From assembly GCF_000568815.1 (NCBI RefSeq), contig NZ_CP007201.1, positions 2,117,654 to 2,181,653 on the forward strand: a DNA stretch of 64,000 nucleotides. Direction: 5' to 3'. A program made the translations under genes and the position numbers. Source of the DNA: Sulfurospirillum multivorans DSM 12446 (GTDB lineage Bacteria; Campylobacterota; Campylobacteria; Campylobacterales; Sulfurospirillaceae). Each line of letters opens with the position of its first letter. Within the stretch, counting starts at the first letter, position 1. Shown one piece after another: positions 30,867 through 42,033 of the stretch. A model generated the notes under the pieces. The model saw nothing but the letters and a program-made list of their open reading frames with translations, was not told the origin of the DNA and did not search any database.

Positions 30867-32702
30867 TTAAGAAAACGAAAGAGGATCTATATCTGCTTCT
30901 ACATGTAAAAGTTTTACCGCATGGGCAAACTCGAGTAACGCTTTACTAGAGTCACTGCGGGCTAGAAGTTCATAACGGTATTTATTGGCGATTTTGGAGA
31001 TATTGGCTTTGCCAAACCCTACCACTTCGACCTGTGGAAAACTTTGCGCGATGAGCGCTACTTTATCGATCAACTCTTTGGCTTTTTCATCTTTGACGTG
31101 AGCACTCATGAGTCTGAGCATCTTTTTAAACGGCGGGTAAAGGTTTTTTCGAAACACCAATTCATCCTTTAAAAACTGCTCAAAATCGCTCAAATATTGC
31201 TTGAAAAATTCGCTGTTTTTACTTTGAATCAACACTTCGCCGTACCCTTTTCGCCCTGCTCTTCCTGCGATTTGTAACACCAATGCCAGCGTTTTTTCGC
31301 GCGATCTAAAATCACTCATACCCAACAGTGCATCGACGCCTAAAATGACAGCCAGCCCCACACCGTGGTAATCGTGCCCTTTGCTGAGCATCTGTGTGCC
31401 GACCATAATGTCGATTTTATGCTCATTAAAATCGCTCAAAATCTCAGAGAGTTTTTTCTCTGTTCTTACCTCATCGCGGTCAAACTGTTGCACCACATGT
31501 TCACTAAAATGCTCGCTAAGCTTTTGGCTCACTTCCGCCGTTCCCATGCGCGTCGCGACGATCTCTTCGCACCCGCATTTGGGGCAGATTTTGGGGATGA
31601 CTTCGGTGTAGTTGCAGTAGTGGCATTTCAGTGCGTTCATGTTGTGGTGAATGCTCATTCCCACACTGCAAAACGGACACTCAACATTCGCTCCACAGCT
31701 TTTACATGTAATGTACTTGAAGTTCGCGCGTGTCGGTAAAAAGACGATGACTTGTTTTTTAGCGTTCAATGCTTTTTGAATCGCTTGTGTCATCTTAAAA
31801 CTTAGCCCATGTTCGCCATCGTCGTACATAATGTGACTTTGTGACTCAAAAAATGTACCCTTAAGTCTAAACGTTGGAATTTTATGAAAGCTTCCAAGTG
31901 TCGGAGTTGCCGAGCCTAAAAGTACTTTGCAACCGATTTTTTGCCCAAACAGAAGTGCCAAATCTTTCGCGTTGTAGCGCGGTCTGTTGCCAGATTTATA
32001 ACTCTCATCGTGCTCTTCATCGACCACGATTAACCCTAAGTGTTGAAGAGGCAAGAAAAGCGCTGAACGCGTTCCTGCGATGATAGAAATTTTCCCCTCT
32101 GAGAGATCACTCAGTATCTGCTCTTTTTTCTTCGCACTAATCTTTGAGTGCCAAATAGCAACGTGTGTGCCAAAATGGTGCTTCAAACGGTTTTTCATCT
32201 GAGGTGTTAACCCAATCTCAGGAAGCAAAAAGATCGCTTGTTTGCCCTCATTGATGCTCTGCTCAAAGAGTTTCATATAGATTTCAGTCTTACCACTGCC
32301 CGTATCGCCAAAAAGGAGTGATGTTGGATGCGCTTCGATAAAATCATACGCTTTTTGTTGTTCAGTGGAAAGTGTTATCTCTATCGTGATTGTTTCGTTT
32401 ACATGTAAAGCATTTGAAGCATACGGCACAAAAAGGCTCAACGCTTCACCCAATGAACAGACATAATACTCAGCGATAAACCGAGCCAGTTCAAGCGTTT
32501 TGGAAGGGTAAAATGGTTTACATGTAAGCGAGATAGTTTCGCATTCAAAAGAGGGTTTTTCAACTTCGGCTATGACGACACCTTGCGTAGTTCGTTTGGA
32601 AAGTGTGACTTCAACGATAGTACCTAAAGGAAGTGTTTGCTCCGACTGATAGGTTAAAGGAGAAAGTGGGGATTTTAAAAGAGCAATATGGTAGTAAAAC
32701 AC
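30867..32702 (-). CDS. priA: Primosomal helicase PriA
   Basis: Replication-restart helicase that recognises stalled forks and reloads DnaB. Walker A GDTGSGKT is at 132-139, with a DEEH box, a zinc-binding region with CKSCGANVECPFC, CHYC and CPKCGCEE, and C-terminal helicase motifs including QIAGRAGRKG. The 611-residue length is short compared with E. coli (732), typical of the group. The start is a GTG, 3 nt after the pseudopilin stop. It contains three TTACATGTAA copies; the one at 31702 encodes part of a zinc-knuckle (Ile-Thr-Cys-Lys). Confidence 0.95.
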   Translation of the reverse strand: MFYYHIALLKSPLSPLTYQSEQTLPLGTIVEVTLSKRTTQGVVIAEVEKPSFECETISLTCKPFYPSKTLELARFIAEYYVCSLGEALSLFVPYASNALHVNETITIEITLSTEQQKAYDFIEAHPTSLLFGDTGSGKTEIYMKLFEQSINEGKQAIFLLPEIGLTPQMKNRLKHHFGTHVAIWHSKISAKKKEQILSDLSEGKISIIAGTRSALFLPLQHLGLIVVDEEHDESYKSGNRPRYNAKDLALLFGQKIGCKVLLGSATPTLGSFHKIPTFRLKGTFFESQSHIMYDDGEHGLSFKMTQAIQKALNAKKQVIVFLPTRANFKYITCKSCGANVECPFCSVGMSIHHNMNALKCHYCNYTEVIPKICPKCGCEEIVATRMGTAEVSQKLSEHFSEHVVQQFDRDEVRTEKKLSEILSDFNEHKIDIMVGTQMLSKGHDYHGVGLAVILGVDALLGMSDFRSREKTLALVLQIAGRAGRKGYGEVLIQSKNSEFFKQYLSDFEQFLKDELVFRKNLYPPFKKMLRLMSAHVKDEKAKELIDKVALIAQSFPQVEVVGFGKANISKIANKYRYELLARSDSSKALLEFAHAVKLLHVEADIDPLSFS

Positions 32703-40943: not shown

Positions 40944-41588
40944 TTAGACTTTTAAAGCATCAATAGCGCTTTTGTAATCGTTGGAGCCAAAAACATAATT
41001 ACCAGCAACCACGATGTCAACACCTGCATTTGCAAGCGCTTCAATGTTGTGATTATTCACTCCACCATCGACTTCAATGAGTGTTTTTGCATTGCGTTTT
41101 AAAATCATCTCTTTTAAAATCGGTGCTTTTTCTAAAACACTGGGAATAAATTTTTGCCCGCCAAAACCAGGATTGACGCTCATTAAAAGCACCATATCCA
41201 AATCTTCAAGCAGATATTCAATGTGAGAAGGTGGCGTATGCGGGTTGAGAACAATCGCGGGAGAGATACCCAAGTCACGGATTTTTTGAATGAGACGGTG
41301 CGGATGTTTCTCCTCTTCAATATGAAAAGAGATGTATTTTGGTTTTAAAGGTGCAAAAAGATCGACAAAAAAAGTGTTGTTTTCAACCATCAAATGAATG
41401 TCTAGAGGCTTGGTAGAAGCCTTAGCTACCGCACTGACCACAACGGGTCCAATGGTGAGATTGGGAACAAAATGCCCATCCATCACATCCACATGTACCA
41501 AATCACAGCCTGCTTCACAAATCGATACGATCTCTTCTCTTAACCTGCCAAAATCAGCGGAGAGAATGCTTGGAGCCACTAACATCAT
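40944..41588 (-). CDS. rpe: Ribulose-phosphate 3-epimerase
   Basis: Interconverts ribulose-5-P and xylulose-5-P in the pentose phosphate pathway. The 214-residue TIM barrel has APSILSADFGRLREE, HVDVMDGHFVPNLTIGP (metal-binding His and Asp), LMSVNPGFGGQKFIP and EVDGGVNNHNI. Two adjacent ATGs are possible; the first is used. AAAGG precedes it. trpF follows 2 nt after the stop. A 117-nt perfect-armed hairpin stands 26 nt upstream of the ATG and must be in, or block, the leader. Confidence 0.96.
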   Translation of the reverse strand: MMLVAPSILSADFGRLREEIVSICEAGCDLVHVDVMDGHFVPNLTIGPVVVSAVAKASTKPLDIHLMVENNTFFVDLFAPLKPKYISFHIEEEKHPHRLIQKIRDLGISPAIVLNPHTPPSHIEYLLEDLDMVLLMSVNPGFGGQKFIPSVLEKAPILKEMILKRNAKTLIEVDGGVNNHNIEALANAGVDIVVAGNYVFGSNDYKSAIDALKV

Positions 41589-41614
41589 CTAAACCTTTTA
41601 AAATCTATTTTAAG

Positions 41615-41731
41615 TTAAAAAGAGTGACAAAACCCGCACGAAACACGTTGTTCCGATGGGACGAAGAGCGAAGCTTCGGGTTCCTATCGTGAACAACTGT
41701 GTTGAGAAAGTGGTTTTGTCACTCTTTTTAA
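41615..41731. repeat. Long rod-like inverted repeat in the rpe/rpmB divergent region
   Basis: Perfect 20-bp arms at 41615-41634 and 41712-41731. Inside, ACACGTTGTTC (41643-41653) pairs with GAACAACTGTGT (41691-41702) with one bulge, CGATGGGA (41654-41661) pairs with TCCTATCG (41682-41689) with one G-U, and CGAAG (41662-41666) pairs with CTTCG (41674-41678). The whole folds as one interrupted rod. Both outer ends are T-runs in their respective strands. No gene lies in it. It could be an RNA leader, a small RNA or a miniature mobile repeat. Confidence 0.8.
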
Positions 41732-41763
41732 TGAAATTGTATCAAAATTTATAATATTTTCGA

Positions 41764-41769
41764 TATAAT
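41764..41769 (+). promoter_or_regulatory. -10 box of rpmB
   Basis: A TATAAT in TTCGATATAATCTC gives a leader of about 68 nt before the rpmB ATG at 41845. It lies downstream of the long hairpin, so the hairpin is not in the rpmB transcript from this promoter. Confidence 0.6.
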
Positions 41770-41844: not shown

Positions 41845-42033
41845 ATGGCAAGAAAATGTGCTCTTACTGGAAAAGGCCCTATGGTTGGTAACAACGTAAG
41901 CCATGCTCACAACAAAACTAAAAGAAGATTCCTTCCAAACCTTAGAACTGTCCGTGTGACACTCGAAGATGGAACGACTAAGAAAATTAGAATTGCTGCT
42001 TCAACACTTCGCACGATGAAGAAAAACGGCTAA
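41845..42033 (+). CDS. rpmB: 50S ribosomal protein L28
   Basis: 62 residues, [20 protein letters not shown] onward, the complete L28 signature with C-terminal [10 protein letters not shown]. The ATG at 41845 follows AAGGA; the upstream in-frame ATG at 41803 has no ribosome site and breaks the conserved N-terminus. It is a single-gene unit with its own promoter and a terminator that includes the stop codon. Confidence 0.97.

Follow-up and report, generated by a model that had tools for sequence, protein, structure and literature searches.

The window analysed here, a 64,000-nt stretch of the Sulfurospirillum multivorans DSM 12446 genome, contains the divergent genes rpe and rpmB and, between them, a palindromic element (positions 41615–41731) delimited by its inverted repeat, its predicted fold and its absence from most related genomes. 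The rpe gene, encoding ribulose-phosphate 3-epimerase (PF00834), lies at 40944–41588 on the minus strand and is followed by trpF, encoding PRA isomerase (PF00697; 40354–40941, minus strand); rpmB, encoding ribosomal protein L28 (PF00830), is on the plus strand at 41845–42033. Forming the ends of the element are two 20-nt arms (41615–41634 and 41712–41731, plus-strand numbering), 100% complementary and separated by 77 nt. Among the 22 inverted repeats of at least 18 nt in the window, this is the sole perfect pair. A rod hairpin is predicted on both strands: RNA folding of positions 41605–41741 gives −62.2 kcal/mol (z-score of −9.40) on the plus strand and −53.5 kcal/mol (z-score of −9.13) on the minus strand, with none of 200 shuffles equal in either case. 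Within the outermost stem is an A-run/T-run symmetry (AAAAAG...CTTTTT). The initial annotation, made from the sequence alone, had described a rod with perfect 20-bp arms and T-runs at both ends, set between divergent genes 26 bp from rpe, and had advised folding it with an RNA energy program. Arms, gene map and fold bear this description out, with the T-runs forming part of the outermost stem and the fold far better than shuffles on either strand.

Located just outside the element is a predicted extended −10 sequence for rpe (TG-A-TACAAT, hexamer at 41736–41741, minus strand). Read from a comparison of the spacers in 22 genomes, the hexamer has the sequence TACAAT in 20 of them and TATAAT in the other 2. 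A TATAAT at 41764–41769 on the plus strand is the likely −10 of rpmB, picked out by eye from the sequence and the spacer comparison. The rpe transcript is predicted to start at about 41728–41730, at the outer edge of the element; owing to this position of the −10, the rpe–trpF mRNA would begin with the rod. The rod would end 26 nt 5′ of the rpe start codon (41588), leaving free the likely ribosome-binding site AAAAGG, which by eye lies outside the hairpin (41594–41599, minus strand). The earlier proposal that rpe transcripts start in or beyond the hairpin is plausible, backed by this predicted and conserved −10.

Of the 22 genomes of the genus with rpe, only that of the window (G000) and its sister G006 carry the hairpin there; in the other 20 the spacer is short or has different content. 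Its absence from these relatives identifies the hairpin as an insertion and not a conserved rpe leader. Its insertion, separating the rpe promoter from the start codon, would date to the common ancestor of the two sister species. Any effect on rpe–trpF expression is probably incidental; the rod might alter mRNA stability or RNase III processing. Capture of a pre-existing terminator at rpe was considered and rejected, as the other genomes all lack a hairpin with these arms at this position. Small hairpins of other kinds are present at sites that carry the element elsewhere (the rpe–rpmB spacer of L117, L119 and L120, and upstream of rdgB in L210 and L211), a hint that palindromes settle preferentially in such spacers.

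The element belongs to a dispersed family, which we refer to here as type A. BLASTN places the hairpin at four positions in its own genome, one being the same hairpin on the other strand, and yields hits in 12 of the 24 genus genomes. A covariance model of the core (R1), built from 20 copies, matches positions 41629–41716 of the window on the plus strand (80.8 bits, E-value of 1.3e-17; G000:C1:2159282-2159369, the window beginning at 2117654). The model has 39 matches in 19 of the 24 genus genomes, with 1–4 in each and 3 in the S. multivorans genome. Across the phylum, matches were found in 21 of 397 sampled genomes and 7 of 68 genera, six of them beyond the host genus and all in the same order; the match in G213 is weak (E-value of 8.8e-5). 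The search for further copies that the initial annotation had advised thus revealed dispersed copies, in the genome itself and in relatives. Searches of 50,697 phage records and 72,556 plasmid records, and an exact-pattern search of viral contigs, detected no match to the element. A keyword search of the open-access literature found no description of the element for Sulfurospirillum or Campylobacterota; in the available part of PMC8865925, palindromic repeats are mentioned only as CRISPR.

The genes neighbouring the copies are unrelated. They include rpe/rpmB, rdgB, a JAB-domain gene with a sulphite/nitrite reductase gene (here ‘cysI’), metY and a saccharopine dehydrogenase gene (Pfam), together with recQ, ywbE, guaB, metX, mnmG, priA and a siroheme-synthase-like gene, named by eye without a family search. 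Several type A copies immediately follow a stop codon. Three of the 44 extracted copies are in-frame insertions in genes, twice in a phosphorylase-superfamily (nucleosidase-like) gene and once in valS. The nucleosidase-like gene, whose match to PF01048 is weak and below the cut-off of that family, is lengthened by 34 and 35 amino acids in G022 and G014, respectively, with opposite orientations of the element in the two, and is uninterrupted in six other genomes. The valS gene of G365 carries 27 additional amino acids and is uninterrupted in two congeners. The metY site, scored by eye in 19 genomes, holds type A in 8, another core in 5 and is empty in 6; the rdgB site holds type A in 5 of 22 genomes, again by eye. 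Filled and empty sites could be compared at rpe, the nucleosidase-like gene, valS, metY and rdgB, where boundaries are blurred and fix no duplication length. At the nucleosidase-like gene and metY, TTTACATGTAAA or a close variant of this palindrome occupies the empty sites, and relatives have stem-loops at the saccharopine dehydrogenase site; a target at or beside dyad symmetry may lie behind this, though TTTACATGTAAA is so common that chance could suffice.

The centre of the element is conserved. In 25 of the 44 extracted copies, from 14 sites, the 32 core pairs hold in 88% of cells. Changes on both sides of a pair occur at 21 of the 32 pairs, in 96 cells compared with 33 ± 4.5 when partners are shuffled, a shuffle that ignores relatedness. 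A bulged T and two internal-loop G residues are invariant in all 25 copies, and a third G is kept in 23. The compensatory changes that the initial annotation had proposed looking for are thus strongly present, and covarying pairs together with invariant unpaired bases indicate that the centre is constrained both as a helix and at the unpaired bases, the pattern anticipated for a site that is recognised when folded. Selection for a conserved encoded peptide was considered and rejected, since the core is read in one orientation in some gene insertions and in the opposite one in others; open frames show a mild excess (1.89 of 6 per copy, compared with 1.08 in shuffles).

The outer arms, by contrast with the centre, are private to each site: their sequence varies from site to site, yet the arms of each copy are complementary. 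Among 19 copies, drawn at one or two per site from the 44 extracted, a copy’s own arms pair at a mean of −20.4 kcal/mol, compared with −8.1 kcal/mol for 332 pairs across sites, and three offset settings agree. Both arms at rpe are site-specific by this measure, the left pairing best with its own partner. One of the 19 copies, in G384, has no pairing arms. At recQ–ywbE the left arm contains the recQ stop codon, which is suggestive of arms arising as inverted copies of the host flank.

Orthologous copies also differ in orientation. Relative to the downstream gene, the copy at the cysI site runs sense in 8 genomes and antisense in 7, and that at the metY site runs sense in 5 and antisense in 3. 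With site states (type A, type B, empty, orientation) read by eye, the species tree requires a minimum of four orientation changes at the cysI site and three at metY. This tree was built from rpe, rdgB and metY for 22 of the 24 genomes (G013 and G019, with fewer than two of the genes, were omitted; G003, G016 and G018 are half filled; the small rpe hairpins of G004, G005 and G009 are coded ‘none’). Between the sister species G001 and G007, orientation differs at the cysI and metY sites alike. At rdgB all five copies point the same way, the pattern that a constrained RNA would give. Both arm types at the cysI site occur in both orientations. As arm type there also alternates between sister species, exchange of alleles between species may explain part of the flips. 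Inversion and change of the outer arms have recurred among type A copies, and the changes of orientation at orthologous sites argue against a strand-specific regulatory RNA.

We conclude that the rpe hairpin is very probably a copy of a low-copy palindromic mobile element of the Campylobacterales, a reading to which the dispersed non-orthologous copies, the empty sites, the in-frame gene insertions and the covarying core of about 90 nt all point. The core may be mobilised in trans by an enzyme recognising the folded single strand through the bulged T and the internal-loop G residues. After insertion, template switching between the arms during replication would homogenise and extend the arms and invert the centre, so that one process would explain private arms and flips together. 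According to the available part of PMC8604942, a yeast study, template switching at inverted repeats homogenises the arms and inverts the spacer between them. With a conserved centre, site-specific arms and recurrent inversion, type A would make the role of template switching in bacterial repeats directly testable. It would also add a further bacterial lineage in which palindromic selfish DNA lies in frame in genes, with close relatives offering natural empty sites. For annotation, the implication is that the rpe hairpin should not be taken for an rpe riboregulator.

The initial annotation had offered an attenuator leader, a small RNA or a miniature inverted-repeat element. The last of these is favoured by the dispersed copies, empty sites and in-frame insertions, though not in its classical form. 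A classical MITE, derived from a deleted insertion sequence and moved by a resident DDE transposase at conserved terminal inverted repeats, would share with type A a size of about 90–120 bp, dispersal and insertion; variable termini around a conserved centre are the reverse of that pattern, and no constant target duplication was seen by eye in the filled and empty comparisons, with their blurred boundaries; this origin is unlikely. The attenuator and the small RNA are not supported, given the absence from rpe in 20 of 22 genomes and the occurrence of both orientations at the same gene elsewhere. It is very unlikely that the hairpin is a small RNA or regulates rpe in cis as an attenuator or riboswitch-like leader: unrelated neighbours across sites, copies within coding sequence and the lack of any Rfam match in the whole window at gathering thresholds all stand against these roles, even though the fold is very stable, the family shows compensatory changes and invariant unpaired bases, and the predicted rpe start puts the hairpin in the leader.

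We regard as highly improbable a bidirectional intrinsic terminator or insulating hairpin kept between the divergent genes by local selection. The A-run and T-run do flank the stem on both strands, and the position of several copies directly after a stop codon would suit such a role. Termination at a hairpin downstream of the predicted rpe promoter would, however, silence rpe; a scan found no terminator-like site; and a plain terminator needs neither conserved bulges nor sequence conservation across genera. In G021 the type A element at the saccharopine dehydrogenase site occupies a position that in relatives holds an ordinary stem-loop, which speaks for a terminator and makes capture of a pre-existing one possible there.

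The mobile palindrome has partial counterparts in other bacteria. Rickettsia palindromic elements (RPEs) are described, in the available parts of PMC2229807 and PMC10969869, as short palindromes forming stable stem-loops, located between genes and in frame in protein genes. Type A resembles them in behaviour, lying between genes and in frame in genes with uninterrupted orthologues. It differs from them in its site-specific arms, its 1–4 copies per genome and its Campylobacterota host; RPEs are reported in these sources to bear inverted repeats at their termini and to number in the tens. YPAL/RU-2 of Yersinia is described in the same part of PMC2229807 as having internal inverted repeats, targets at or adjoining dyad symmetry, and filled and empty sites. 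Type A matches this description in its internal inverted repeats and its filled and empty sites, whereas YPAL is there given as 168 bp with target duplications of 3–26 bp. On our best reading, type A would work in the manner of the Rickettsia RPEs or of YPAL in Yersinia. Bacterial MITEs such as ERIC/IRU are likewise intergenic, sometimes intragenic, imperfect palindromes of about 100–130 bp in the accounts available; these MITEs are reported there with conserved ends and target duplications, whereas the ends of type A are not conserved. GTAG-type REP repeats are reported, in the available part of PMC3733652, from all divisions of Proteobacteria, epsilon included. REPs, mobilised by RAYT, are palindromic like type A but are 20–40 bp long and high-copy, compared with about 90–120 bp and low copy for type A, and no GTAG or CGTC tag common to all type A copies was seen by eye.

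A second palindromic repeat unrelated to type A, referred to here as type B, is present in all 24 genus genomes with 1–38 matches in each. The S. multivorans genome has 28 matches (for example, C1:2975694-2975786); type B also lies at about 1345–1484 of L221. At metY, a type B centre lies between nearly the same arms in five genomes, that of the window included. At rpe, G008 has type B where G000 and G006 have type A; among the matches listed, the BLAST match there is only in G008, and G010 and G014 show a resemblance by eye. The arms might accordingly be standing docking palindromes with exchangeable centres, swapping between A and B at metY and perhaps at rpe, and flipping; we consider this rather unlikely.

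Integron attC sites recombine as folded single strands with extrahelical bases. Type A differs from them in that no R-box pair was recognised by eye and no cassette array was seen. If centres were exchangeable, the process would be a novel recombination on folded single strands, swapping or inverting hairpin centres across a bacterial order; it would be attC-like in recognising bulged bases but would do so without an integron.

A further palindrome, TTACATGTAA, is highly iterated. The window contains 35 exact copies (for example, at 32399, 36264, 40727 and 43082), compared with 0.05 expected, and the 3.18-Mb genome contains 1484, compared with 2 for the reversed control. A keyword search found no paper pairing this palindrome with a second term. 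It resembles HIP1 of cyanobacteria. On a crude map of coding sequence, 20 of the 35 window copies fall inside genes, and base pairing commonly continues past the ten bases. In the spacer between the saccharopine dehydrogenase gene and the next gene (L192–L213), a stem-loop is centred on TTACATGTAA; its arms vary by species and stay complementary, giving the same pattern of conserved centre and variable arms as in type A.
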